Positions 7,519-32,235 are shown, numbered from the stretch's first letter. The stretch: 40,266 nt of DNA from Methanomicrobia archaeon DTU008 (GCA_001512965.1 LFRW01000026.1:1-40266), one strand, 5' to 3'. Program-made: numbers and translations. Notes: generated from the letters alone by a model not told the origin.

Positions 7519-8058
7519 TCACTTCTTGGGCTTGCGATCGAAGAACACGTTCTTCCCGGACGCGGAGAGCGGGATGCCGTGTACGATGTTCGACCCGCCG
7601 ATGCCCAGTCGCCTGGCGGCCACGCCGATGGAGTACATTATGCGGTTGTCCACGTTCATGTTCGAAGCGATCTTGGCCGCCGAACCCAGGGCGATGCCCA
7701 GGTCCAGGCATCGGATGGAACAGTTGGGGCCATCGAAGTCGCCCGACAGGGTGTGGCGGTTGAACTCCTCGCAGGTCGGATGCCCGCACGCGCCGCAGTC
7801 GAGTCCCACGCCCTTGTGGGGCAACAGCCCTATTAAGAGCACCGCATCCGAGTCCAGGACGTTCTGCCCGTCCCTTGCCAGGAAAGCGGGCATCCCTTCT
7901 TCATTGGCCAGTCTGATCATCTCGTTTCCGACCGCGACCCTCTGCTCGTCGGTCAGGAGGATGGTCTCGATGTAGTCCTGCCCGACCGCCTTGGGCGCGG
8001 TCCTGGCGGCCAGTTCCATGAGCCTGCCGACCATTCTGACGGTATCCTTGTGAGTCAT
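7519..8058 (-). CDS. DUF2148 Fe-S (ferredoxin-like) protein
   Basis: This 179-residue protein matches the DUF2148 pattern. Cysteines C88, C91 and C96 form CGACGHPTC, and C113 and C117 follow; together they probably hold a [4Fe-4S] cluster. The CGxCxxPTC core resembles the cluster site of the corrinoid Fe-S protein AcsC encoded at 26748-28067. The rest is glycine-rich and has GVAARRLGIGGSNIVHGIPLS near the end. The start at 8058 is supported by a TATA-like GGATTATAAG near 8081-8090; a longer frame exists but would include that promoter. The function of the family is not established. Confidence 0.85.
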   Translation of the reverse strand: MTHKDTVRMVGRLMELAARTAPKAVGQDYIETILLTDEQRVAVGNEMIRLANEEGMPAFLARDGQNVLDSDAVLLIGLLPHKGVGLDCGACGHPTCEEFNRHTLSGDFDGPNCSIRCLDLGIALGSAAKIASNMNVDNRIMYSIGVAARRLGIGGSNIVHGIPLSASGKNVFFDRKPKK

Positions 8059-8210
8059 GGACTCTTGATGCTCTTTCCATCTTATAATCCATGTCGGGTG
8101 GCATCGACGACAATGGCTCCTTCCATGCAATTTCAATACCGAACTTTGAGGCCGGAAACAAGGATCCACCGCTAGCTTTATCCAGACGGGGTAGCCAAGG
8201 ATTAAGTACT

Positions 8211-8221
8211 AGATTATTTAT
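8211..8221 (+). promoter_or_regulatory. TATA-like box for tRNA-Glu
   Basis: ATTATTTATCG lies about 15-25 bases above the mature 5' end of the tRNA, with A/T-rich sequence before it. The position suits an archaeal tRNA promoter with little or no leader. Confidence 0.45.
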
Positions 8222-8235
8222 CGAACCTGCCAAAC

Positions 8236-8310
8236 GCTCCCGTAGTGTAGTCCGGTCAATCATTCGGGCCTTTCGAGCCCGCCACCCGGGTTCAAATCCC
8301 GGCGGGAGCA
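8236..8310 (+). tRNA. tRNA-Glu (anticodon UUC)
   Basis: The acceptor stem GCTCCCG (8236-8242) pairs with CGGGAGC (8303-8309), followed by discriminator A at 8310. The anticodon stem is CGGGC/GCCCG around the loop CTTTCGA, giving anticodon UUC, which reads glutamate. The T arm contains GGGTTCAAATCCC. There is no intron, and CCA is not encoded. Confidence 0.95.
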
Positions 8311-8695
8311 CTTCTCTTCCACCGATCATCCCTTCTCGAAGGTCAATTCAAGGATTATCAGTTATCTGGTTCGATCTCATGATCATAGCCGTTGTAAGAA
8401 TAAGCTCGATCCCTTAGAACCAAATTTGGAGCAACAACATCGGTTAAACGAATCACAACAAATTGGCCGATCATGTGAAGTCACACTTTTAGTGGCATCC
8501 TAGTACAAATTAAGGTCCAGTCAAATCGATGATGATATCATCGAACATAATTATATTCTCAGACTGATCAAAGTGGAGCACACATCGTCTGGATGCGGCA
8601 AGTACGCCGCCATCGTGATTCCTGGTCAGTGGCAGTATGCTCATCTGAGAAGAATCATTAAGGTGGAAAACCGTTGATGCCCTGGTGTTTCTTAG
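8311..8695. other. Intergenic region with palindrome and A/T-rich boxes
   Basis: No convincing gene was found here. It holds a perfect 12-base palindrome, GATGATATCATC, at 8531-8542, followed at once by a TATA-like ACATAATTATATTC (8546-8559). A second A/T-rich box, GAATCATTAA near 8652-8661, is better placed for the HMA gene that starts at 8696. A 22-codon frame from 8593 shows no coding character. Confidence 0.5.
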
Positions 8696-8902
8696 ATGAG
8701 CGAGATCACTCTGAACGTCAAGGGCATGAAGTGCGGCGGTTGCAAGAAAAGGGTCGAAGACGCTCTCGTTTCTCTACCTGGCGTATCCTCTGTCAAGATA
8801 GACCTGAAGAAGGGCGAGGTACAGGTCGCCTACGATGAAACATCGACCGGTCCAGAGCAGATCAGGAAGAAGATCGGCGAGGCCGGGTACCAAGTGGCGT
8901 GA
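8696..8902 (+). CDS. Heavy-metal-associated (HMA) domain protein, CopZ-like
   Basis: This 68-residue protein is a single HMA fold. The metal site GMKCGGC sits at residues 10-16 with C13 and C16, as in CopZ/Atx1-type copper chaperones. The expected beta-alpha-beta-beta-alpha-beta pattern follows, ending in AGYQVA. Such proteins carry Cu(I) or related soft metals in the cytoplasm. No transporting ATPase or metal regulator is nearby, so the partner is unknown. The metal is inferred from the family. Confidence 0.9.
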   Translation: MSEITLNVKGMKCGGCKKRVEDALVSLPGVSSVKIDLKKGEVQVAYDETSTGPEQIRKKIGEAGYQVA

Positions 8903-8947
8903 GCGGCCCGGCCGCTGCAAGATGAGGCCACGGTCTTCAGCCCTGAT

Positions 8948-10666
8948 TCAGTCGTCCAGCATGGTAAGGTCGCCAAGAGGCTGGCCAAGTTCCCTTGCCT
9001 TCAGTACCCTACGCATGATCTTGCCCGAGCGGGTCTTGGGCAGGGACTCGACGAACTCGATCTCCCTGGGATATGCGTAGTAGGCCAGTCTTGTCTTGAC
9101 GAAGTTCGTTATCTCGTCTCTCAACCCATCCGATGGCGTGAATCCCGGCCGGAGGGTTATGAAGGCCTTCACGATCTCGCCCCTCAGCTCGTCTGGCTTG
9201 CCGATGACACCTGCTTCCGCGACCGCGGGATGCTCGATGAGGGTCGATTCCACCTCGAACGGACCCAGGCGCTCTCCCGACGTCTTGATGACATCGTCCG
9301 CGCGACCCATGAACCAGAAGTATCCGTCCTCATCGACATAGGCAAGGTCTCCCGATATGTACCAGCCGGGGATCTCGAAATACTCCCTGAACTTCGGCGT
9401 ATTGCGCCATATGCCGGTCATCATCGAAGGCCAGCCGGGGCGGAGCGCCAGGAACCCATAGGTTCCTGGAGGAACCTCCTGGCCGTTCTCATCGACGATC
9501 GAGGCCACCACGCCTGGGACGGGTCTCCCCATCGACCCGGGCTTTATGTCCATGCACCGGAAGTTGGCTATGCAAGGCGCTCCCGTCTCGGTCTGCCACC
9601 AGTTATCATGAATGCGCGTGCCCAGCACTTCAAGGCCCCAACGCACGACCTCTGGATTCAGTGGCTCACCGGCAGAGCATATGTGCCTCAGTTCAGATAG
9701 GTCGAACTCTCTGATGACATCGTCTCCCGCGCGCATTAGCATCCTCAAAGCGGTCGGGGCGGTGAACCAGACATTGACCTTGAACCTCTCGATGATGGAG
9801 CACCATGCTCTGGCATCGAACCTGCCTTCGTATGAGACCAGGGTGGTCCCCAGGTACCAAGGGCCGAAGATCCCGACCGATGTCCCGGTGACCCATCCGG
9901 GATCGGCGGTGCACCAGTATGTGTCATCCTCCCTCAGGTCCACCACGTACTTGCAGCCCACGAACTGCTGCACCATGGCCCGGTGCCCGAGCATAACTCC
10001 CTTGGGCTTGCCGGTGGAGCCCGAGGTATAATGTATGATGTATGGATCGGTAGGGGCCATGTTCATGGCCAGGTATCTGGGGTCTCCCAGCTCCAAGGCC
10101 TCATCGAACCTGACGGTCTTTCCTTCCGGTAACTCGTCGTCGCCGACGATTATGAACTTCTTGACGTCCAACAGTTCATCGAGGACAGGCTCCAGCCTCT
10201 GGTAGAGATAGGGGGAGGTGACGATGATGCTGGCACTGCAGTCCAGAGCACGGTCCTTCACAGCTTCTGGACCAAGGGCGGAGAAAAGGGGGCCGGCGAT
10301 CCCGCCCATCTTTGCGATGCCAACGACGGAGATGTACAGCTCAGGGATCCTGTCCAGATATACCAGGACGCGGTCGCCCTTTACCGCCCCCAGCTTCTCA
10401 AGCCCGGAGGCGAAACGACTGGTGAGGTCCGCCATCTCGCCGAAGGTGAACTTTCGCACTCCCCCGTCAGCCTGTACCGAGTAGAGAGCTATCTTGTTCC
10501 TCCTCAAGTTCTCAGCATGGCGGTCGATCGCCTCCGCGGCTACGTTATAGCGTCCGCCGTTCGACCAGGCGAAATCCTTTTCTACAGAGGCCCAGGAGAA
10601 CTCCCGATAGGTAGTCGCATAATCAGTCAGGTTCCCTGGTCCGAGTGGAGAGATCCTTGCATCCAT
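8948..10666 (-). CDS. acsA: AMP-forming acetyl/acyl-CoA synthetase
   Basis: This ANL-superfamily ligase activates acetate or another short acid through an acyl-AMP to the CoA thioester. The 572-residue product has the P-loop HYTSGSTGKPKGVM, the adenine-binding DNWWQTETG, the hinge GDLAYVDEDGYFWFMGRADD and the C-terminal lysine motif KTRSGKIMRR. The start at 10666 was chosen because a TATA-like TTTAAATAT lies near 10711-10719; a longer reading would begin above it. Acetate is the most likely substrate given the acetyl-CoA synthase cluster in this window, but propionate or other acids are possible. It is transcribed alone. Confidence 0.88.
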   Translation of the reverse strand: MDARISPLGPGNLTDYATTYREFSWASVEKDFAWSNGGRYNVAAEAIDRHAENLRRNKIALYSVQADGGVRKFTFGEMADLTSRFASGLEKLGAVKGDRVLVYLDRIPELYISVVGIAKMGGIAGPLFSALGPEAVKDRALDCSASIIVTSPYLYQRLEPVLDELLDVKKFIIVGDDELPEGKTVRFDEALELGDPRYLAMNMAPTDPYIIHYTSGSTGKPKGVMLGHRAMVQQFVGCKYVVDLREDDTYWCTADPGWVTGTSVGIFGPWYLGTTLVSYEGRFDARAWCSIIERFKVNVWFTAPTALRMLMRAGDDVIREFDLSELRHICSAGEPLNPEVVRWGLEVLGTRIHDNWWQTETGAPCIANFRCMDIKPGSMGRPVPGVVASIVDENGQEVPPGTYGFLALRPGWPSMMTGIWRNTPKFREYFEIPGWYISGDLAYVDEDGYFWFMGRADDVIKTSGERLGPFEVESTLIEHPAVAEAGVIGKPDELRGEIVKAFITLRPGFTPSDGLRDEITNFVKTRLAYYAYPREIEFVESLPKTRSGKIMRRVLKARELGQPLGDLTMLDD

Positions 10667-10710
10667 GCCAATGTGCCCCAAAGACCCACTCGCAGAGATG
10701 GAAAGCCCAT

Positions 10711-16294: not shown

Positions 16295-17590
16295 ATGGCT
16301 ATGTACTGCAACCAGTGTCAACAGACGGCTAAGAACATCGCATGCACGGTGCGAGGTGTGTGCGGGAAGGACGAGGATACGCAGAGTTTGATGGACACCC
16401 TCATCTTCGGCCTCAAGGGCATCGCCGCCTATGCCTATCATGCTCGCATTCTGGGCAAGACCGACCCCGAGGTCGACGCGTTCATCGAGGAGGCCCTGTT
16501 CAAGACCCTCACCAACGTCGACTTCTCCCATGAGGATGTCTGGAACACCCTCATGAGGGCGGGAACGATCAACCTCAAGGTCATGCAGATGCTAGATGCC
16601 GCCAACACCGAACATTTCGGCCTCCCGTCACCCACCAAGGTGCGCACCGGCACGGTCAAGGGCCCGGGCATACTGGTCACCGGACACGACCTCCTCGATC
16701 TGGAGGAGCTTCTCAAGCAGACCGAGGGCACTGGGGTCAACGTCTACACGCACGGTGAGATGCTTCCGGCCAATGCCTACCCGGAGCTGAAGAAGTACAA
16801 GCATCTGATAGGGAACTACGGGTCCGCCTGGCAGAAGCAGAAGAAGGAGTTCGATGAGTTCGGCGGCCCCATCCTGGTCACCACCAACTGCGTGCTCATC
16901 CCTCCTGAATCGTACAAGGGGCGCCTGTACACCACCAGCGTGGCCAGGGTTCCCGGGGTCAAGCACATCGAGGACCGCAAGGACTTCAGTCAGATCATCG
17001 AACATGCGAAGCAGATCGGCGACCTTCCAGAGCGCCGGGGTCCCGATGTCTGGACCGGGGCCCATCATAAGGCGGTGCTCTCCCTGGCGCCCCAGATCAT
17101 AGATGCGGTGAAGGCGGGGAAGATAAAGCACTTCTTCCTGGTCGGCGGCTGCGACGGCGCCACGCCTGGAAGGGACTACTACACCCGGCTGGCGGAGATG
17201 ATACCGCAGGATGCGGTCATCATGACACTGGCCTGCGGCAAGTACCGCTTCAACGATCAGGACTACGGCGACATCGAAGGCATACCGCGATTCCTGGACA
17301 TCGGCCAGTGCAATGACGCCTACTCCGCCATCGTCCTAGCGGTGGAGCTTGCCAAGGCTTTCAACGTCGAGGTGAACGAACTGCCGTTGAGCATCGTGCT
17401 GTCATGGTTCGAGCAGAAGGCGGTGGCCATCGTGCTCACGCTGCTGGCCCTGGGAATAAAGAACGTCCGAATAGGCCCCACGCTGCCTGCCTTCATCACG
17501 CCGAACAACTGGAAGCATATCCAGGAAAACTTCGGCTGGAAGGCCATCGGCGATCCGGAGCAGGACCTGAGGGACATGCTCAAGGCGTGA
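16295..17590 (+). CDS. hcp: Hybrid cluster protein (hydroxylamine reductase-like), short class
   Basis: Hcp proteins hold a conventional [4Fe-4S] cluster and an Fe-S-O hybrid cluster. They reduce hydroxylamine in vitro and are proposed to handle nitric oxide or nitrosation in vivo. This one has 431 residues, the size of the short class common in archaea and thermophiles. The N-terminal cluster ligands are C5, C8, C17 and C23 (C-x2-C-x8-C-x5-C). Likely hybrid-cluster motifs follow: VTGHDLLDLEELL, VYTHGEMLPANAYPELKKY, LVTTNCVLIPPESYKGR, VGGCDGATPGRDYY, TLACGKYRFN and DIGQCNDAYSA. It faces the Cys-rich Lrp-type regulator. Confidence 0.95.
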   Translation: MAMYCNQCQQTAKNIACTVRGVCGKDEDTQSLMDTLIFGLKGIAAYAYHARILGKTDPEVDAFIEEALFKTLTNVDFSHEDVWNTLMRAGTINLKVMQMLDAANTEHFGLPSPTKVRTGTVKGPGILVTGHDLLDLEELLKQTEGTGVNVYTHGEMLPANAYPELKKYKHLIGNYGSAWQKQKKEFDEFGGPILVTTNCVLIPPESYKGRLYTTSVARVPGVKHIEDRKDFSQIIEHAKQIGDLPERRGPDVWTGAHHKAVLSLAPQIIDAVKAGKIKHFFLVGGCDGATPGRDYYTRLAEMIPQDAVIMTLACGKYRFNDQDYGDIEGIPRFLDIGQCNDAYSAIVLAVELAKAFNVEVNELPLSIVLSWFEQKAVAIVLTLLALGIKNVRIGPTLPAFITPNNWKHIQENFGWKAIGDPEQDLRDMLKA

Positions 17591-21062: not shown

Positions 21063-22268
21063 ATGATCCATCATAGGTCGCTTCACCCGAACGATGCCGA
21101 GCTCGCCAATTGGTCTGGAAGCCTTGTGTTCAGGCCGAGATACGTGGGGGTGCCACGTGATGAGGAGGAGGCATGTTCCATAGTGCGTCTGGCGGCGAGA
21201 GACGGCCTCAAGGTCCGTCCCGTGGGCCGTCGCCATTCATCGTCACCCATCATCGCCACCGACGACGTGGCCGTCAGCATGGAGAACATGAGCGGTCTGA
21301 TCGAACACGATACCGAGGAGGGATGGGCGCTGGTGGGAGCGGGAACGTCCCTGGATGACATGGGGCGGGCGCTGAACGCCGTCGGGCTGGCCACGCACAA
21401 TCTTGGCGATATCAACGTGCAATCGGTGGTGGGGGCGGTGTCAACATGCACACATGGCTCCGGTCGAACGCTGACGAATCTGGCCACCATGCTGATAGGC
21501 GGCCGAATGGTGACCGCCGACGGCGAGGTCAGGGAGATCGGGAGCGACATCATACACGCGGCCAGGGGCTCATTGGGGACCCTGGGGCTGTTCACGGCGC
21601 TCAAGCTCCGCCTATTGCCTCGTTACCGGTTGCGGCGCAGGGAATGGTGCACCACCTTGAGCGAATGCTTCGAGCGATTGGAGGAGCTAAGCCATGGCAG
21701 CAGGAATTTCGACATGTACTGGTACCCGAGAAGCGACCGGGTGAAGCTGCGCACCCTGGACCCTCCAGGGGAGGGTCCTGAGGGGATCGAGGGTGCCAAA
21801 CTGGTCCTGGAGATGGAAGGTTGGAGCAACGAGGTACTGTCACGGAAGAGGGTCCTGAGGTTCGATGAGATGGAGTATGCGGTGCCGGCCGATGTGGGAG
21901 AGGAATGCTTCCTCGAGGTCAGGAAGAGGATCATGCAGCGTCATCGCAGGACGGTGGGGTGGAGGGTGCTATATCGCTATGTTGCGGCCGACGACGCATA
22001 TCTAAGCACCGCCCATGGGCGCGATACCGTCACCATATCCCTGCATCAGAACAACACCTTGCCATATGATGAATACTTCAACGACATCGAGGAGGTGTTC
22101 CTCCGGTATGGTGGGCGGCCCCACTGGGGCAAGAAGCATGGCCTGGAGGCAGAGGACCTCGAACCGCTGTATCCGAGATGGTCCGAGTTTCAGAGGGTCA
22201 GGAGGGAGCTGGACCCGGAAGGGGTCTTCCTGACCGATCATATGGGCAGGCTGCTCGAGGGGTGCTGA
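21063..22268 (+). CDS. FAD-linked oxidase, sugar-1,4-lactone oxidase family
   Basis: This 401-residue flavoprotein resembles aldonolactone/alditol oxidases, which oxidise sugar lactones or polyols with FAD and oxygen or another acceptor. The FAD-binding half contains VRPVGRRHSSSPI, where H58 may form the covalent flavin link, and later NVQSVVGAVSTCTHGSGR. The C-terminal half has the family ending, PHWGKKHG and YPRWSEFQRVRRELDPEGVF. A GGAGGGAT ribosome-binding site lies about eight bases above the ATG. Its stop overlaps the start of the ASRT-domain gene, so the two are coupled. The true substrate is unknown. Confidence 0.88.
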   Translation: MIHHRSLHPNDAELANWSGSLVFRPRYVGVPRDEEEACSIVRLAARDGLKVRPVGRRHSSSPIIATDDVAVSMENMSGLIEHDTEEGWALVGAGTSLDDMGRALNAVGLATHNLGDINVQSVVGAVSTCTHGSGRTLTNLATMLIGGRMVTADGEVREIGSDIIHAARGSLGTLGLFTALKLRLLPRYRLRRREWCTTLSECFERLEELSHGSRNFDMYWYPRSDRVKLRTLDPPGEGPEGIEGAKLVLEMEGWSNEVLSRKRVLRFDEMEYAVPADVGEECFLEVRKRIMQRHRRTVGWRVLYRYVAADDAYLSTAHGRDTVTISLHQNNTLPYDEYFNDIEEVFLRYGGRPHWGKKHGLEAEDLEPLYPRWSEFQRVRRELDPEGVFLTDHMGRLLEGC

Positions 22269-23125
22269 TGTCTGTCGGAAGCTGCACATGGGCGATACCC
22301 GGCGGCCGGATCCCGTTGAGGAGCACGGGACCAGAGCCGGAGAGCACGTCTCATGACCTGTTGTGTTTCCTCAACATAGGGAACGACGATGCATCCGTCA
22401 GCATCTGGATATATTACGGGGACAGGGACCCCGTGGGACCGTATCGGATCACCGTGATGGCAGAGAGGGTGCGGCACGTGCGCCTGAACGACCTGATCGA
22501 TCCAGAGGCCATTCCCCTGGACACGGATTATGGCGTGCTCATCCGCTCCAACGTGCCGATAATCGTGCAATTCTGGAGGCAGGACACCTCGCGAGGAAAG
22601 ACCGTCGCCACGACCATGGCAGTGCCCCTTGACCGAACCCGGAGTCTCCTTCTGCAGGATGTCTCCCTTCCTCCGGTTTCACCAGATGAACTTGGGACAT
22701 GTCGGATGGAGGAGCTTCGTATCGAGGGCCGGTCCGCCACCAGGCCGCCCGGCGAGGAGTTCGATCCATCTGCCGCTCTTATCGTGGACCATGCTTTCCT
22801 GCAGGTAGGTGAGCGCGTAAACATGTCGAGCGGCCAGATTCTATGTACCTGTAAGTGGCATCGAGATCTCATGACCACCACATGTGAGCGTTGGCTTGGG
22901 GACATACTTGCCGCCGAGGGTGTGAACATCACGGCTTCGAACCGGGAGGCGGTGGAACGTGGGATCAAGGCCGTCCTGGGAGAGAAGGTCGGCCTGGACA
23001 CGTGCACCGAGGACTGGATCATCATACGCAATCGGGTTTCCAAGGACCCCTTGGTAAGAAGCCAACTGGTGGCACGGATCAGGGAGGAGATGGAGAAAGA
23101 AAAGGTGGCGGCCCGACCAAGGTAG
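22268..23125 (+). CDS. ASRT-domain protein (sensory rhodopsin transducer superfamily) with extra C-terminal domain
   Basis: The first 130 residues of this 285-residue protein match the ASRT beta-sandwich pattern: WAIPGGRIP, SHDLLCFLNIGNDDASVSIW, YYGDRDPVGPYRI, RVRHVRLNDL, PLDTDYGVLIRSNVPIIVQF and RQDTS. ASRT-like domains have been proposed to bind small molecules, probably sugars, well beyond rhodopsin signalling. The C-terminal 130 residues are not recognised and hold five cysteines (CTCKWH, TTCERW, DTCTED) and a basic helical end. The gene overlaps the lactone-oxidase gene by one base (TGATG). No rhodopsin is in the window. Confidence 0.85.
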   Translation: MSVGSCTWAIPGGRIPLRSTGPEPESTSHDLLCFLNIGNDDASVSIWIYYGDRDPVGPYRITVMAERVRHVRLNDLIDPEAIPLDTDYGVLIRSNVPIIVQFWRQDTSRGKTVATTMAVPLDRTRSLLLQDVSLPPVSPDELGTCRMEELRIEGRSATRPPGEEFDPSAALIVDHAFLQVGERVNMSSGQILCTCKWHRDLMTTTCERWLGDILAAEGVNITASNREAVERGIKAVLGEKVGLDTCTEDWIIIRNRVSKDPLVRSQLVARIREEMEKEKVAARPR

Positions 23126-23446: not shown

Positions 23447-24469
23447 GTGGCTTGGAACTGCTTACCCTGCTGTATCGGCTCGCTGCCGCATACCGACCCT
23501 GCCAGGGCGGTCGACCTCGTTCTGGAGAAATTGACATCGATACCGATATGGCCCCAGCTTCCCAACCGGGGTTTCCAGGAGAACATGTATGCCCAGTTCG
23601 CCACCCGGCTGCCTGGGGTGAACATCGACAATGCTCGCAATAAGCTCCAGGTCGACCTTCGCGACTACGATCCAGAGGCGATATACACTGCCATACTGTC
23701 CGATGACGTGGATTGGTTCTCCATGGAGAAGGATAACTTCTCTGGATTCCATGAGCTGATGTCCCGTTCTCTTCCGGAAAGCCTGGTCGCGGTCAAGGGT
23801 CAGGTGACCGGCCCCGTCTCGCTCGGCCTGCAGATGATCGATCAGGACGACAAGCCTGTCATCTACGACGAGGCATATGGGGAGATAGTAAGGAAGAACC
23901 TGAATCTGATGGCAAGGTGGCAGGAAAGGGAGCTGAGTAGGAAGTGCCCTCGCACCATCATCTTCCTTGACGAACCATACCTCAGCCTTATCGGCACCCC
24001 GTTCGCGTCGGTATCTGGACAGGATGCGACAGCATGGATAAACGAAGTGGTAGAGGGCCTGGAGGGAACGAAGGGGCTGCATTGCTGCGCCAATACCGAC
24101 TGGCCCATGGTGATGGCCACAGACATCGACCTACTTTCGTTCGACGCCTATGATTACGGGCACACCATCGCCCTATACCCTGAGGAGGCGGCCCGATTCC
24201 TCGAGAAGGGGGGCGCCTTCGCATGGGGCATCATTCCCAACAACGAAGAGACGATCGCATCGGAGGATGTGCCATCGATAGTGCGGCGCGCCGAGGAGGC
24301 ATTCCGCGGACTGATCGACAAGGGCATAGATGAGGACCTGCTGCTGAGGCGTTCGATCCTCACGCCCCAATGCGGCCTTAGCGGGTTGGACGAATCCACA
24401 TGCGCCAGGGTGCTGGACCTCCTGAACAAGGTATCGGAGGAGTTAAGGGCCCGTCACTCGCTTGACTGA
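23447..24469 (+). CDS. Core-MetE-like corrinoid-dependent methionine synthase
   Basis: This 340-residue protein matches the catalytic half of cobalamin-independent methionine synthase; the folate-binding N-terminal half is absent. It opens with IGSLPHTDP. Zinc-site residues expected from MetE are H212 and C214 (LHCCANTDW) and C309 (TPQCGLSG); the glutamate ligand may be D233 in LLSFDAYDY. Folate-independent enzymes of this type (core-MetE/MesB) take methyl groups from corrinoid proteins. Location beside the acetyl-CoA synthase genes points to the AcsCD corrinoid protein as donor. The GTG start is leaderless-like. Its stop overlaps the next gene (ATGA). The donor is inference. Confidence 0.8.
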   Translation: MAWNCLPCCIGSLPHTDPARAVDLVLEKLTSIPIWPQLPNRGFQENMYAQFATRLPGVNIDNARNKLQVDLRDYDPEAIYTAILSDDVDWFSMEKDNFSGFHELMSRSLPESLVAVKGQVTGPVSLGLQMIDQDDKPVIYDEAYGEIVRKNLNLMARWQERELSRKCPRTIIFLDEPYLSLIGTPFASVSGQDATAWINEVVEGLEGTKGLHCCANTDWPMVMATDIDLLSFDAYDYGHTIALYPEEAARFLEKGGAFAWGIIPNNEETIASEDVPSIVRRAEEAFRGLIDKGIDEDLLLRRSILTPQCGLSGLDESTCARVLDLLNKVSEELRARHSLD

Positions 24470-25227
24470 TGAACATGTCCTACGTCATCGCTGTCGCCGG
24501 CAAGGGAGGGGTGGGGAAGAGCACGCTGTCAGCGTTGCTCGTACGATCGCTCAGCGAGCTCACCGGCGAGATAGTCCTGGCCGTCGACGCCGACCCCAAC
24601 GCCAACCTCGGGGATAAGCTGGGCGTCAAGGTGGAGCGGACCATAGGGCAGCTGCGTGAAGACCTGTTGAAGCAGGCCGATGACCTGCCGGCAGGCATGT
24701 CTAAGCAGGATGCCGTGATGTACCACCTCCGCCTGGCCATGGTAGAGGGTGAGAAGTTCGACCTGGTCACCATGGGGCGCCAGGAAGGCCGAGGCTGCTA
24801 TTGCTACATCAACAACCTTCTGCGCACCTTCCTGGACGGCATAATGGACGACTACCGGTACGTCGTCATCGACAACGAGGCGGGGATGGAGCACCTGTCC
24901 CGGCGGACATGCCAGAAGATGGACATGCTGGTGATAGTCACCGACCCCACCGTCGTGGGCCTCACCACCGCCCGGCGCATCCTGGAGCTGGCAATGGAGA
25001 TGGAAGTGGCCTTCTCCCACAGCATGCTGGTGGTGAGCCGTGTCAGGGGTGAACTGTCCTCAACTCTGGTCGACGCCATCGAGGATGCCGGCTTCGAGAA
25101 ATGGACGACGATCCCGCACGACGACGAGATCGACAGGTTGGCCGAGGAGGGCCTACCATTGACCGAACTCTCGAAGGACAGTGCGGTGGCGGTCGCGGTT
25201 AGAGAACTGGTCAATATGATGCATTAA
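24469..25227 (+). CDS. cooC: CooC/AcsF-type nickel-insertion ATPase
   Basis: This 252-residue P-loop ATPase of the MinD/CooC family matures nickel enzymes. The deviant Walker A GKGGVGKST is at residues 11-19, VDADPNANLGDKLG follows, and the nickel-binding C-x-C is C110/C112 (GCYCY). CooC serves CO dehydrogenase; the related AcsF serves acetyl-CoA synthase. As acsB is close by and no CODH catalytic gene is present in the window, either role is possible. Its ATG overlaps the stop of the core-MetE-like gene, so they are coexpressed. Confidence 0.92.
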   Translation: MNMSYVIAVAGKGGVGKSTLSALLVRSLSELTGEIVLAVDADPNANLGDKLGVKVERTIGQLREDLLKQADDLPAGMSKQDAVMYHLRLAMVEGEKFDLVTMGRQEGRGCYCYINNLLRTFLDGIMDDYRYVVIDNEAGMEHLSRRTCQKMDMLVIVTDPTVVGLTTARRILELAMEMEVAFSHSMLVVSRVRGELSSTLVDAIEDAGFEKWTTIPHDDEIDRLAEEGLPLTELSKDSAVAVAVRELVNMMH

Positions 25228-26747: not shown

Positions 26748-28067
26748 TCAGATCTGGCCGCTCTTCAACAGCTTGGGGATTCCAGACGATTCCCTTGGGC
26801 CGACCACGACCTTCAGGCCGCTGAGCTCCTGCAGTTTGCCCGACATGCGGGACAGCATTCCAGGTATGATAAGCGTACCCTTCTTGCTCCTCTCCTTCGC
26901 AGAGGTCTCTTCCAGCGCGGTGACGACGCTTTCCGCCGACAGCTTGCCGGCCGAGAACGCCGTCAGGACCGACAACCCTTCGGTATCGACGACGAGGAGC
27001 CATGCCGGGACCTTGGACTTCTCGATGTCGGCCAATACGGTGTAGTAGGTCAGTGAGAAGTTGGTAGTGAACAGTATGGGCGAATCCTCCCTTGGATCGT
27101 TCACTGGATACAGGCCGGCCTTCACCTGGATGGGCACCTGCGGGTCCGTGTAGATGTTCTGCCTCAGCACGAACAGCGGAAGCGCATGGGCGGGATCGAG
27201 GTCGTCGAGCAGCACGATGCCACCGTACTTCATGGTGGACAGCATGGCCTTGAGGACCGCTCGCTCATCGCCGCATGCGTTCAGCACTATCGGGTACCCC
27301 AGGCCGCGGAAGGTCTTCTTGACGGCGTTCTTCCGCACGATGGTGTTCTTCTCCACCAGGTCCTTTGCCCGTTGAGGGGCTAGATCGAGCATCAGGTCCT
27401 CGACGCCGGCCTTGCGGGCGCGCTCCGCCATGTCGGCCAATGTATTGAGGTCCTCGCTCCTCAGGGCGAGGGGGCATTTCAGCTCCTTTGCCACGGCGGC
27501 CATTTCCTCGACGTTCTCGGCGGTGGCGGCATACAGCAATGGCCTGGTCAGGCCGGCCGCGGCCTGTCTCAACGCCTCCGGCCTATCGGACATGAGCACC
27601 ATGGGCAACCCTTCGTTCGCCACGCGGGACGCCATGGCCGCGAACGTGCTGGCATCTCCCGAATCGTTCCTGACGGCGAGCATGTCGAGCGCTAGCGTCT
27701 GGCCAACGCGGTCGAACACGAGGTCCCGGGCCCGTTGAAGCTTCCCTTCCACCTCCTCGTCCGACGCTGAGTCCGAGATGACGATGGCATACCTGGTGGG
27801 GTGGAAGAACTTCTTCTCATGCCGGTACAGTTCGGTCTCATCGCCCAGCTCCACCTTCTTGGGTCCATCCCCGATGGTCACGAGGCGGATGGGCGGGGCG
27901 GAGGAAGCCTCCAGCTTTGCCTTCGCCTCCTCGCTCACGAAGGGGCAATCCGACAGCTTGACCTTCTGATTGGCGAGCTGCATGGCGAAGGCAAGGCAAG
28001 TGGGGAAGTTGCACTTCCCGCAGTTCTTCTTCGGTAGATGTTTGAAGATCTCTATAGCCGTGGCCAT
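26748..28067 (-). CDS. acsC: Corrinoid Fe-S protein large subunit AcsC/CdhE
   Basis: This subunit carries the [4Fe-4S] cluster that reactivates the corrinoid and, at its C-terminus, binds the cobamide; it passes methyl to acetyl-CoA synthase. From the ATG at 28067 it has 439 residues. The cluster ligands are C16, C19, C24 and C41 (KKNCGKCNFPTC...DCPF). Later segments such as FDRVGQTLALD, RQNIYTDPQVPIQV, TTNFSLTYYTV and VDTEGLSVLTAFSAGK closely resemble bacterial AcsC. GGTGA lies five bases above the ATG; a GTG at 28076 is possible but lacks a site. It starts one base after the acsD stop. Confidence 0.95.
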   Translation of the reverse strand: MATAIEIFKHLPKKNCGKCNFPTCLAFAMQLANQKVKLSDCPFVSEEAKAKLEASSAPPIRLVTIGDGPKKVELGDETELYRHEKKFFHPTRYAIVISDSASDEEVEGKLQRARDLVFDRVGQTLALDMLAVRNDSGDASTFAAMASRVANEGLPMVLMSDRPEALRQAAAGLTRPLLYAATAENVEEMAAVAKELKCPLALRSEDLNTLADMAERARKAGVEDLMLDLAPQRAKDLVEKNTIVRKNAVKKTFRGLGYPIVLNACGDERAVLKAMLSTMKYGGIVLLDDLDPAHALPLFVLRQNIYTDPQVPIQVKAGLYPVNDPREDSPILFTTNFSLTYYTVLADIEKSKVPAWLLVVDTEGLSVLTAFSAGKLSAESVVTALEETSAKERSKKGTLIIPGMLSRMSGKLQELSGLKVVVGPRESSGIPKLLKSGQI

Positions 28068-28068
28068 T

Positions 28069-29016
28069 TCACTCACCCCTCAGTTCCTCGATGGCGTCTT
28101 TCAGGATCTCCAAGCTGCGCGGATGCCGGACTATGAGCAGGTCGGCCCCAGACAGAAGGGCGGCCAGGCCGGTCGTGGCCTCCCACCATGCGCCCCTTTC
28201 CTCAGCGTCCCCCCATGCGGCGTTCTCTTCCGTGGCCTCCCTTGTCTCCCACGACGAGGTAAGGTCGCAGCACATGGGCGTCTGCAGCATGCGATCGCCC
28301 ATCAACGCGGCCAGGCGTATGCGCTCATTGACCGAGTATGAATACTCCAGTCCCACACCCAGGGCTGCCATGAGGGGGTCCATGACAACATTCTCGAGCT
28401 TGGTCCCAAAGTCGGCCAGCAGGATGTTCATCTGCTTTGCCAGATTGACGTCCAGATTGGAGTAGGCTATGAGGGCGTGGCCGTTGGCGGTGGCAGCGGC
28501 GGATATGCTCTTGTAGGCGTTCTCCTCGGCCTGCCCCAGCAGGACCCTCTCTCCGGCGCAGGCGTTGCTCACCAGCTCCATGGCATTGGCGTCCTTCTCG
28601 GTGTTCCCGCCACCATAGACCATCAGGGGCAGGTCCACTGCCTTCAGGACGCTCAGGACGGTCGCCACCGCATCTTCCGCCGGGGCATCCTTCCCTTCAG
28701 GGTCGAGGGAGCGGAGCTTCAAGCATATCATGTCCGCACCCAGCTCCTTCCAGCGTGCGGCCCACGCCACTGGATCGTTGGCGACGTCGCTGAATGCGGC
28801 GATGCTTAGCTCAGGAACGCCCTCTGTGTAGTCGAGGACCTCTCCGGCCAGGCGTTGCTTGTGCCCCAACCCTTCGTACGATAGGAACGGCATACCGCTC
28901 CCGCCACCCAGCATGATGGGGGCCGAGCGGCTGCCGCCTTCCGCGGGCGAATTGCCAATGGTAACCGTTCCTATCTTGCCTGACCATTTCTCCTTGGGTA
29001 TAGGGACCTCGACCAT
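28069..29016 (-). CDS. acsD: Corrinoid Fe-S protein small subunit AcsD/CdhD
   Basis: AcsD forms a TIM-barrel heterodimer with AcsC and helps hold the cobamide. The protein has 315 residues, close to bacterial AcsD and shorter than typical methanogen CdhD. Recognisable segments are GSRSAPIMLGGGSGMPF, GADMICLKLRSLDPEGKD, LMVYGGGNTEKD, VLLGQAEENAYKS, AYSNLDVNLAKQMNIL and MAALGVGLEYSYSVNERIRL. AGAGGA six bases before the ATG at 29016 favours that start over 29022. It follows acsB by 11 bases, within a three-gene operon. Confidence 0.94.
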   Translation of the reverse strand: MVEVPIPKEKWSGKIGTVTIGNSPAEGGSRSAPIMLGGGSGMPFLSYEGLGHKQRLAGEVLDYTEGVPELSIAAFSDVANDPVAWAARWKELGADMICLKLRSLDPEGKDAPAEDAVATVLSVLKAVDLPLMVYGGGNTEKDANAMELVSNACAGERVLLGQAEENAYKSISAAATANGHALIAYSNLDVNLAKQMNILLADFGTKLENVVMDPLMAALGVGLEYSYSVNERIRLAALMGDRMLQTPMCCDLTSSWETREATEENAAWGDAEERGAWWEATTGLAALLSGADLLIVRHPRSLEILKDAIEELRGE

Positions 29017-29027
29017 CTTCATTCCTC

Positions 29028-31172
29028 TCAGGACAGCAGGGGAGGCATGCGAAGCGCGGGATGGTCGACCTTGGCCATCCACTCCATCAGCCCTTCAGCA
29101 TCGGTGGTGACAGTCTCATCGGCTATCTTGTCCACGAAGTCTGGCTCACCCAGCTCCCTTGCCCGGGCCTCCAATGCCTCGCGCATGCTCTCTTTCAGCT
29201 CCTTCGGCATCCAGGAGATGCGCAGGAACCCGCCGTCCGCAGAGATGAATTTTCTGCTCGTTAAATACTTTCGCCCTGCGCCGATGAATCCCGGCGTCTG
29301 TTTCCCGCCTCCGACCGAGCCAGCCAAGGAGGAGAACTTCATTCCTAGCGGTATCATCCCAGGATACTCGCGGTTGACCACCACTACGGACTGCATGTCG
29401 GGCGACATGGCGACGATCACCTCGAAACAGCCGCACGAGGTCATGGGATCCTCCATGAGCGAGTAGATGTTGAACCGTTCGATCTTATGGTGTGAAGCCT
29501 CGTAGACGGCCTCATTGACACCGGCGAACTGTCCCTTCTCTGCATCGATGCATTCCCCTTTGACTATAGGCTGGTTGGGTCCGGCAGGAGCGATCTCCTT
29601 CGACGCCCTGGCATCGAGCCAGTTGATGGCTCCGCACAGCCCCAGGCGCTCCGGCGTTATGACGCAGATGTGGTCTGGTGCGAACGAGGCGCAGAGTGAG
29701 CAGGTATAGAACTCGTCGACGTTCTCATCGGTGAGCCCGGCCAGCCGGGCATCCCTTCTGCCATATATCTCCATGGCCTCGGACGATCGCCTTCGCACCT
29801 CGTCCTCATCGGTCACTATGGTGACCTGGATGCGGGATACGAGCCCGCCGAACTCCTCCTTGAACTTGGTTATGAGGATGTTCCCGAAATGCTTGAAGGT
29901 CAGCCCTGCCTCCACCGACGAACGGCTCAGCCGGATCCAGTTGAGGTTTCTCTGCCCGGTGTGCCATGCTCCCTCGGCATAATTGATGAACTGATGGATG
30001 CGGCGTTCGAGGACGCTTTCGAAGTCCTCCTCCATCTTCTTCCCGTACACATCCACGACTATCGCCAGCGCGGTCGACGATCCAGCTTCCATCTCGTCGA
30101 CGTCCTTGCCGATGAGGGTGATGCGCCCATCCTCGACCTCGTCCTCCGGCCGTGACCGGAGCAGTTCGAACGTCGGCGTCTTGGCCGCCCCGCCCGCCTC
30201 CACATAGGTGTCCGGCCGTCGGACGATCTCGCCCTCGAACGCCGGGCCGTAAGCCACTGGAATGTCCACCGGGGCTAGCTTCACGCGTATTCCCCTTGCC
30301 TCTATGGCGGCCTGCACCATCTTTTCCGGGGACACGCTCAGCAAGGCGTCCGGTATGTCCTCCACTTCCTGGTCCGTCAGCACCGGGGCGCAATTGAAGA
30401 TGGCCGCCAGGCCCACCGCGGCCATGATGTCGTCGAGCGGTCCGAAATGCAGCACGAACGTCTTCGGCCTCTTCGACAGGTAATCGCGCAAGGTCTCGCG
30501 GTCACCGCGCTGCACCCCTCCGAAGGAGAGCGCACCGCGTATGGCGAAGTTCAGGGCGTGTACGATCTGCGTACCCTCCCCAACGGGATAGAGCATCATG
30601 CCCAGCCCCATCTTGATGTTGGCGTTCCTTAGCTGCTCGATGATCTCATTGGACGCGATTATCAGCATGCCCTTGGACTGCAGGTCCCTCACTATGCTGA
30701 CCAACTGTCCCGGGTCCGGGGCCTTCCCTGCCAGCACGGCGACGCCAGGGATGGTGTCGTCGACCAGTGCGACTCCCAGCTCCCGCAGCAACTTGTCAGG
30801 GATGAATCCGCAGTAGCCAGTGCCCTCATAGGGATGCGGGTCCTCTACGTATCTAAGCGCCTCTATGATCTCGGCCGCGATCATCGTGGCCTCACCCGCG
30901 ACCAGTGCATTCTCGACCGTCGGCTCGTCGCGCAGACGGGACCTATAGTCCTCCAGCAGTGGGCGGATGTCGGATAGGTGTAGCACTTCCCGTCCATCCC
31001 AGGCATACACGGCGGGAAGCTCGTAGGCCGTTTCGGGATACTCGACCGTCCGTTCCTCGCCGTACTTTGCCACAGTGTCGTCAAGTGCGCCCGCGGCCAG
31101 CCGCAGGAGCGTTCTCGCTCCTCGTATGCCCATCTCGAAGATCTGTTCTGCGCTAGCCCTACTGGAGTTCAA
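29028..31172 (-). CDS. acsB: Acetyl-CoA synthase, long bacterial-type AcsB (beta subunit)
   Basis: AcsB joins CO, a corrinoid-bound methyl group and CoA into acetyl-CoA at the nickel-containing A cluster. It has 714 residues. A-cluster cysteines are C491, C494, C503 and C513 (TCSLCASFAPDHICVITPER then LGLCG), plus C580 and C582 (SCGCFE), matching the spacing of Moorella AcsB (506, 509, 518, 528, 595, 597). The first 310 residues form the domain that contacts CO dehydrogenase (YPETAYELP, AGEATMIAAEIIEALRY, GTQIVHALNFAIR). Archaeal CdhC usually lacks this domain, so the form is bacterial. The TTG start has GGAGG seven bases upstream. It heads acsB-acsD-acsC. Confidence 0.96.
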   Translation of the reverse strand: MNSSRASAEQIFEMGIRGARTLLRLAAGALDDTVAKYGEERTVEYPETAYELPAVYAWDGREVLHLSDIRPLLEDYRSRLRDEPTVENALVAGEATMIAAEIIEALRYVEDPHPYEGTGYCGFIPDKLLRELGVALVDDTIPGVAVLAGKAPDPGQLVSIVRDLQSKGMLIIASNEIIEQLRNANIKMGLGMMLYPVGEGTQIVHALNFAIRGALSFGGVQRGDRETLRDYLSKRPKTFVLHFGPLDDIMAAVGLAAIFNCAPVLTDQEVEDIPDALLSVSPEKMVQAAIEARGIRVKLAPVDIPVAYGPAFEGEIVRRPDTYVEAGGAAKTPTFELLRSRPEDEVEDGRITLIGKDVDEMEAGSSTALAIVVDVYGKKMEEDFESVLERRIHQFINYAEGAWHTGQRNLNWIRLSRSSVEAGLTFKHFGNILITKFKEEFGGLVSRIQVTIVTDEDEVRRRSSEAMEIYGRRDARLAGLTDENVDEFYTCSLCASFAPDHICVITPERLGLCGAINWLDARASKEIAPAGPNQPIVKGECIDAEKGQFAGVNEAVYEASHHKIERFNIYSLMEDPMTSCGCFEVIVAMSPDMQSVVVVNREYPGMIPLGMKFSSLAGSVGGGKQTPGFIGAGRKYLTSRKFISADGGFLRISWMPKELKESMREALEARARELGEPDFVDKIADETVTTDAEGLMEWMAKVDHPALRMPPLLS

Positions 31173-31296: not shown

Positions 31297-32235
31297 CTAG
31301 ATCACGATCGGCTTGAAAGGTCCGACCTCGGACGGCGACTTGAAGGATGACAGGGCCACCTCTATCCGCGCCCGCAGCTCGTCCAGGGAGACGGAGCATT
31401 TGCTGACGTCGGCCACCACGTCCAGTGACATGCTCTCGTAATAGTTGAGCACCTTCGTGTGGAGCATCAACAGGTTGACGTTGGAGCGAGACATGGCGTC
31501 GGCGACCTGGTGGATGGCCCCTGGCTTGTCCGGGACCGTCATGTTTACCGATATCAATCTGACCGACGGATCGAGCATGGTGATGCTCAGCACATAGGAG
31601 TTCATGTCGCCGACCATCATGAACGGCCGCCCGTCCACCTCGCTCCCGAGCTCGGCCATGAACTCTTCCGGAATGACGAACTCGTTCTTTCGTATCTGCG
31701 AAGGAGTGCGGCTCTTGCGCTTGATCATCTTGGTCTTGATCGTCCGGGAGGCGGAGATGGCCCCCTTGGTATACCGGTCGGCGATGTGCGATTCGCTCAG
31801 CTTCATCGAATCGACCTTGTCCAGGGAGGACGGCGAGTTCCTCTTTGCCGAACTGAACTCGGCGATGAGGTCGTCCGGCTCGCCGAAATAGGAGAGGTCG
31901 ACCAGCATCTTCCACACCATGACCGCCCCCGAGATCATGCTCAGTGACTCGGAGTTCAATATGTCCACGTTGCGGTCTGCCAGGAATTTTGACGCCTGGG
32001 CGCATGCACCTGGCTGGTCGATCATGTTGATGGTCAGGTCGTAGAGCAAGCGGTAGTTCTCAGGTCCGAACGTGGAGAGGACGATCTCATGGGAGGAGGT
32101 GTCCTTTCCTTCGTAGCGGAACATGGTGGAGAAGACCTGGCTCCCGTTCACCAAGCCCAGTGGCTCTCCGATCTCCTGGTCGATCGTAATGCTGTTCCCG
32201 TTCAACCGTCCGAACTGCCAGAGCCTCATATCCAT
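31297..32235 (-). CDS. Double-ACT-domain protein, probably a regulator
   Basis: From the ATG at 32235 this protein has 312 residues. Two ACT domains are visible: LLYDLTINMIDQPGACAQAS at about 63-82 with its following strands, and ISVNMTVPDKPGAIHQVADA in the last third. ACT domains bind amino acids or other small ligands. The middle holds a basic segment (RTIKTKMIKRKSRTPSQIRK) and FVIPEEFMAELGSEVDGRPF. No DNA-binding fold or enzyme domain is clear. It lies just above the acs operon on the same strand. Upstream in-frame sequence to 32409 does not look coding. Confidence 0.75.
   Translation of the reverse strand: MDMRLWQFGRLNGNSITIDQEIGEPLGLVNGSQVFSTMFRYEGKDTSSHEIVLSTFGPENYRLLYDLTINMIDQPGACAQASKFLADRNVDILNSESLSMISGAVMVWKMLVDLSYFGEPDDLIAEFSSAKRNSPSSLDKVDSMKLSESHIADRYTKGAISASRTIKTKMIKRKSRTPSQIRKNEFVIPEEFMAELGSEVDGRPFMMVGDMNSYVLSITMLDPSVRLISVNMTVPDKPGAIHQVADAMSRSNVNLLMLHTKVLNYYESMSLDVVADVSKCSVSLDELRARIEVALSSFKSPSEVGPFKPIVI

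Follow-up and report, generated by a model that had tools for sequence, protein, structure and literature searches.

A bacterial-type acetyl-CoA synthase operon without its CODH partner in a Methanomassiliicoccus-family methanogen

The window analyzed here, a 40,266-nucleotide stretch of DNA assembled under the name Methanomicrobia archaeon DTU008, carries a closely packed acsB-acsD-acsC operon on the minus strand at 26748-31172 (Table 1). A sequence-only reading had placed these three genes here, and Pfam, NCBIfam and solved relatives bear the assignment out, with profile and structure matches of AcsB, AcsC and AcsD that all lie far beyond chance. About 12 bases separate the AcsB stop from the likely AcsD start, and the GTG start of AcsC overlaps the end of AcsD. 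On the other strand, 1.5 kb past acsC, a CooC-like and a MesB-like gene form a conserved pair. No Pfam or NCBIfam model matched the latter (23447-24469), which is termed MesB-like because of a published account of core methionine synthases (PMC7857596) and its conserved linkage to acs genes. Upstream of acsB, the ACT-domain protein is a conserved neighbor and a possible regulator. The archaeal translation genes reported from the same window were found again at approximately 0.3-5.6 kb, where reading of the translations by eye gave the putative names KsgA, L21e, RIO kinase and eIF1A-like protein. At 22178-23125 on the plus strand, the window of this anaerobic methanogen also encodes a protein with an Anabaena sensory rhodopsin transducer (ASRT) domain by Pfam, preceded by a FAD-linked sugar-lactone oxidase-like gene (21063-22268).

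Table 1. Genes and protein features of the acs locus, in window coordinates
Feature	Position	Strand	Basis and remarks
MesB-like core methionine synthase (putative)	23447..24469	+	Named from PMC7857596 and conserved linkage to acs genes
CooC-like nickel-insertion ATPase (putative name)	24469..25227	+	CbiA/ParA-type ATPase by Pfam; kept beside acsBDC in relatives
acsC, 442 aa from GTG or 439 aa from ATG at 28067	26748..28076	-	NCBIfam NF003195, 543 bits; best solved relative Moorella 4djd_C
acsD, 315 aa	28069..29016	-	ATG at 29016; NCBIfam NF003376; best solved relative Moorella 4djd_D
acsB, bacterial-type acetyl-CoA synthase, 714 aa	29028..31172	-	TTG start, GGAGG 7 bases upstream; Pfam, NCBIfam, solved relatives
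A-cluster nickel motif C580-G581-C582	29427..29435	-	Invariant in alignments
A-cluster cubane ligands C491, C494, C503, C513	29634..29702	-	Invariant in alignments
CODH_A_N domain, AcsB residues 29-109	30846..31088	-	Pfam PF18537, E 2.8e-27
ACT-domain protein	31297..32229	-	Pfam ACT; synteny; upstream of acsB; start taken from relatives

AcsB comprises three Pfam domains, CODH_A_N (residues 29-109), CdhC (304-459) and ACS_CODH_B_C (470-713). The first belongs to the N-terminal domain, ~300 residues long, by which bacterial AcsB binds CODH within the complex, and its presence confirms the earlier description of a 714-residue protein that keeps a CODH-binding domain. The same is evident from NCBIfam, in which the bifunctional alpha/beta model scored 949 bits over the full length versus 459 bits for archaeal cdhC. 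Over the shared C-terminal region, truncated Moorella ACS (3git) scored 525 bits versus 377 bits for Methanosarcina CdhC (9c0s_E). AcsB retains 76 of the 79 invariant residues of the A domain and 35 of the 37 of the N-terminal domain, and alignments show all six A-cluster cysteines (C491, C494, C503, C513, C580 and C582). The best model for AcsD is the short subfamily NF003376 (331 bits; cut-off 280), whereas the archaeal cdhD model gave 229 bits, under its cut-off of 252.9. Together with NF003195 and the Moorella structures, this agrees with the bacterial likeness claimed for AcsD at 315 residues and AcsC at 439, the latter length being that from the ATG rather than the GTG start.

The window's genome (G000) measures 1.76 Mb, is 99% complete, contains methyl-coenzyme M reductase (MCR) and belongs to a Methanomassiliicoccus-family methanogen. 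The nearest named relatives of its AcsB, at 87-91% identity, are those of Methanomassiliicoccus UBA345 and UBA386 and of Methanomassiliicoccales archaeon RumEn M1. The acsB gene is present in all five congeners examined, nearly the whole family and 44 of 61 relatives. The gene order GTPase-DUF-ACT-AcsB-AcsD-AcsC repeats in independent assemblies, followed by CooC and MesB where the stretch is long enough, and recurs in G017, from another family of Methanomassiliicoccales, where the locus carries a fused AcsA. These observations dispose of the suspicion that the contig is a chimeric or contaminated join of bacterial and archaeal DNA. The one point in favor of such a join is that the operon reads as bacterial-like, and the probability of a join is negligible given that the gene order is conserved across independent assemblies and families, that congener AcsB proteins are 79-88% identical to that of the window and that the operon is native in composition. 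The GC content check proposed earlier gave GC3 values of 0.78-0.83 for the operon genes versus a mean of 0.76 for the other window genes, a mean lowered by one gene cut out of frame, which accounts for the 0.43 end of the range. Recent transfer is likewise rejected by synteny and composition.

The distribution of the operon extends well beyond this family. AcsB was found in 42 of 391 sampled Thermoplasmatota genomes, in several other orders or classes. Trees of AcsA, AcsB, AcsC and AcsD, built by a quick method with SH-aLRT as the sole support measure and, as archaeal CdhC/D/E are not included, unrooted on archaea, each split the Thermoplasmatota from bacteria with Bacillota adjacent. One distant member (G090) falls between the two groups in the AcsB tree. 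The earlier suggestion of AcsB, AcsC and AcsD trees was thereby followed for bacterial and Thermoplasmatota members, and each places the latter beside Bacillota. A weak match in one genome (G068), considered as an archaeal CdhC for use as an outgroup, is not a CdhC. Contig C78 of this genome encodes a 237-residue protein with weak similarity to the AcsB middle domain (L156, 1563-2273, plus strand); it stands in one series with a CooC-like gene and two ATPases similar to activators of 2-hydroxyacyl-CoA dehydratase.

Judged from these comparisons, the window's operon belongs to a CODH/ACS lineage that several orders of Thermoplasmatota have in common and that is the sister group of Bacillota. 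This lineage was most likely brought to the Thermoplasmatota by an old interdomain transfer, the donor likely standing near Bacillota. The exchange likely ran from bacteria to archaea, a direction taken from the distribution and not polarized by the trees, because the groups are sisters and archaeal CdhC/D/E are missing from them. Alternatively, as the sequence-only reading also allowed, the module could be an ancient form that this archaeal lineage inherited vertically, in which case no transfer occurred. The Thermoplasmatota sequences are indeed sister to Bacillota rather than nested within them, yet AcsB occurs in only a small part of the phylum, AcsA is much more like bacterial Ni-CODH (726 bits) than archaeal CdhA (39 bits), and the order also carries bacterial-type folate-branch genes, so that vertical descent is improbable. 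The interdomain transfer of a whole ACS module proposed from sequence thus stands in part. Bacterial type, Bacillota-adjacent trees, the folate branch and AcsE favor it, but the module is not peculiar to this genome, and its presence in so many relatives and in other Thermoplasmatota orders and classes means that any interdomain exchange is old. The module is also not whole, the CODH half being missing in the window's family and fused or decayed in relatives.

A search for CODH in the 61 relatives and for AcsA in the 15 genomes of the window's family found no AcsA-clade CODH in any of the 15. The sole CODH of the window's genome is a stand-alone CooS (contig C16, 78615-80444) with intact ligands, which belongs to a Methanomassiliicoccales clade of its own. 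A hybrid-cluster-protein-like gene (putative, HCP) on the window's contig, at 16295-17590 on the plus strand, matches the CODH model weakly; it was rejected as a CODH, and HCP accounts for the weak CODH-model matches in this genome. No Ni-CODH of any kind was found in four other members of the family (G006, G007, G008 and G011), each rated 99% complete, nor in a single-contig genome of another family (G027) in which AcsBDC is present. In the window's family, AcsA has been lost, while AcsB, AcsCD, AcsE, AcsV and CooC have been retained. CO-tunnel residues in the AcsA-less AcsB proteins are mostly still small, with changes near 250-263, a signal too weak to build on. Solved structures (1ru3 and 7nyp) show that ACS can occur as a monomer with no CODH.

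In related lineages, the two enzymes are joined. Families f3, f4 and f6 and other lineages of Thermoplasmatota have one uninterrupted frame of 1362-1396 codons, with a complete Ni-CODH, including its C-cluster and cubane ligands, in the N-terminal half and AcsB in the C-terminal half. Two such fusions lie on records titled chromosomes (CP070732.1 and CP070751.1), and in some Thermoplasmata (L067, L158 and L159) acsA and acsB are adjacent and unfused. Elsewhere in Methanomassiliicoccales, a decayed AcsA part stays fused to an intact AcsB. As read from aligned columns, the fused CODH half of G048 is full length without the histidine, C295, C333 and most cubane ligands, and that of G060 has an internal deletion. 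In genus g6, family f5 and part of family f2, only an AcsA remnant of ~300 residues is left. Profile comparison matched the g6 remnant to the C-terminal part of AcsA (E 3e-8, probability 95%) and, more weakly, the f2 remnant to AcsA (E 3.5e-5, probability 72%). Selection on the g6 remnant is relaxed but purifying, with a dN/dS of 0.19 versus 0.10 for AcsB in the closest pair, more distant pairs being near synonymous saturation. The top fold matches of a predicted remnant model were all Ni-CODHs, with an E value of 0.005 at best and one of five models confident; this result is not independent because CODH rows stood in the alignment. A fold search with the whole decayed protein gave mainly ACS matches.

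Counted on the AcsB tree, AcsA was lost a minimum of two times. Genera g13 and g20 each hold both fused and AcsA-less members, and convergent acceleration or exchange may therefore distort that tree. The arrangement suggests, with a little less than even probability, that CODH/ACS was dismantled stepwise in Methanomassiliicoccales, from fusion, through a metal-less pseudo-enzyme acting as a scaffold on a working ACS, to deletion as in the window. In genus g12 (Methanomethylophilaceae-like, three genomes), a divergent ACS with all six A-cluster cysteines persists without CODH or corrinoid iron-sulfur protein. On this reading, ACS would be a free-standing methyl/acetyl exchanger in methanogens, possibly with new partners.

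Several other AcsB genes have unusual forms. Divergent full-length AcsB proteins of ~35% identity are encoded at L137 (G026, 8016-10049, minus strand) and L162 (G039, 8603-10687, plus strand); both have all six A-cluster cysteines, with CSC in place of CGC, and are adjoined by a CooC-like gene. A CdhD-family corrinoid protein, AcsE and MetF were looked for in G026, G032 and G039, and none was found. Intein-like insertions stand directly before the C580 equivalent at L160 (G071, contig C36, 2899-5568, minus strand; ~168 residues) and directly before the C494 equivalent at L176 (G008, contig C3, 12407-16009, minus strand), the latter larger and with LAGLIDADG-like motifs. In a Treponema MAG (L134, 7941-11453, plus strand), AcsB and AcsD share a single 1171-codon reading frame.

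The remaining pathway genes of the window's genome bear on how an ACS without AcsA might be used. Contig C24 encodes FTHFS, MetF and homologues of AcsE and AcsV, and a putative FolD-like protein was recognized by reading its translation. Methanomassiliicoccales are reported to have no type of methionine synthase other than MesB, for which the corrinoid iron-sulfur protein is the predicted methyl donor (Price et al., PMC7857596). In Dehalococcoides, AcsB and AcsCD without CODH split acetyl-CoA for the core methionine synthase, and the CO leaves the cell (PMC7005905, PMC11334346). By analogy, ACS and the corrinoid protein are probably uncoupled from CODH in these methanogens and would move methyl groups among acetyl-CoA, folate and methionine by cleavage and exchange. 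We infer activity, flux direction, the fate of CO and MesB function as follows. The nickel A-cluster would still interconvert acetyl-CoA with methyl-corrinoid protein and CO, but the CO would no longer pass through a channel shared with an attached CODH. The main activities of AcsB would be acetyl-CoA decarbonylation and methyl exchange, with acetate-derived acetyl-CoA being split and the methyl group passed to AcsCD. From there, the methyl group could go to homocysteine through MesB or to folate through AcsE, and CO would be oxidized by the stand-alone CooS where present and otherwise lost.

The same genes could also run in the synthetic direction. FTHFS, FolD and MetF would convert formate or CO2 to methyl-THF, AcsE would methylate AcsCD and AcsB would join the methyl group to CO from the separate CooS, giving a two-piece CODH and ACS for carbon fixation. 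As the genome encodes AcsE as well as a folate branch that supplies methyl groups from formate, these need not derive from acetyl-CoA, and because this genome, unlike Dehalococcoides, makes methyl-folate and has a CooS, synthesis from CO is still conceivable. The presence of FTHFS, MetF, AcsE, AcsV and the FolD-like protein and the intact ligands of the CooS on C16 are consistent with this direction. However, the CooS clade differs from complex-forming AcsA, its gene lies on another contig and near-complete relatives retain AcsBDC and AcsE without any Ni-CODH, which together make the synthetic reading rather unlikely. It is less probable still, at perhaps a slight chance, that the stand-alone CooS has replaced AcsA and binds the AcsB N-terminal domain to restore a normal CODH/ACS complex. 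The retention of that domain with nearly all of its invariant residues would fit such a replacement, but CooS is only ~39% identical to fused AcsA, occurs also in two genomes in which fused AcsA is intact (G040 and G054) and is missing from several family genomes that retain AcsB. Cleavage or exchange by an uncoupled ACS remains the more probable reading.

CODH/ACS ranks with the most ancient enzyme complexes. As a tunnel carries CO from one half to the other, the two are usually regarded as one unit. With a lineage in which the halves became fused and CODH was then inactivated or dropped while ACS stayed under selection, the role of a lone ACS becomes testable. Metabolic reconstruction also needs caution here, since the presence of AcsB in these methanogens does not in itself point to CO2 fixation by CODH/ACS. 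ACS/CODH with a folate branch has been reported before in Methanomassiliicoccales (PMC6147122, PMC10804542), as has MesB with the Wood-Ljungdahl pathway (PMC7857596). Within the open papers surveyed, none was found to describe AcsA fused to AcsB, a CODH remnant or the recurrent lack of AcsA.

The closest published account within the order concerns the MAG MALP, for which ACS/CODH and a folate pathway were reported (Speth and Orphan 2018, PMC6147122). In the available parts of that paper, ACS/CODH is taken as complete for acetate cleavage, and loss, fusion or decay of AcsA is not described. Compared with the archaeal ACDS complex (CdhA-E), the window's system has homologous A-cluster chemistry, and CdhC, CdhD and CdhE are homologous to AcsB, AcsD and AcsC. 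Unlike the 714-residue AcsB, CdhC is without the N-terminal domain. By score, the proteins of the window fit bacterial-type models better, and no CdhA match above cut-off was found in the 61 relatives. The CODH/ACS of Moorella and Carboxydothermus is similar in AcsB domain order, A-cluster ligands and the sizes and families of AcsC and AcsD, and the window's genome likewise has AcsE, AcsV, a CooC-like protein and the folate methyl branch. The window's family differs in being without AcsA, and the single AcsA-AcsB polypeptide of its archaeal relatives was not seen in the bacterial CODH/ACS loci examined. The incomplete Wood-Ljungdahl pathway of Dehalococcoides mccartyi resembles the present system in having AcsB and AcsCD without a complex-forming CODH and a putative MesB-type gene nearby. 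However, the window's genome is that of a methanogen with a stand-alone CooS, and it has the MetF and AcsE that are missing in Dehalococcoides.
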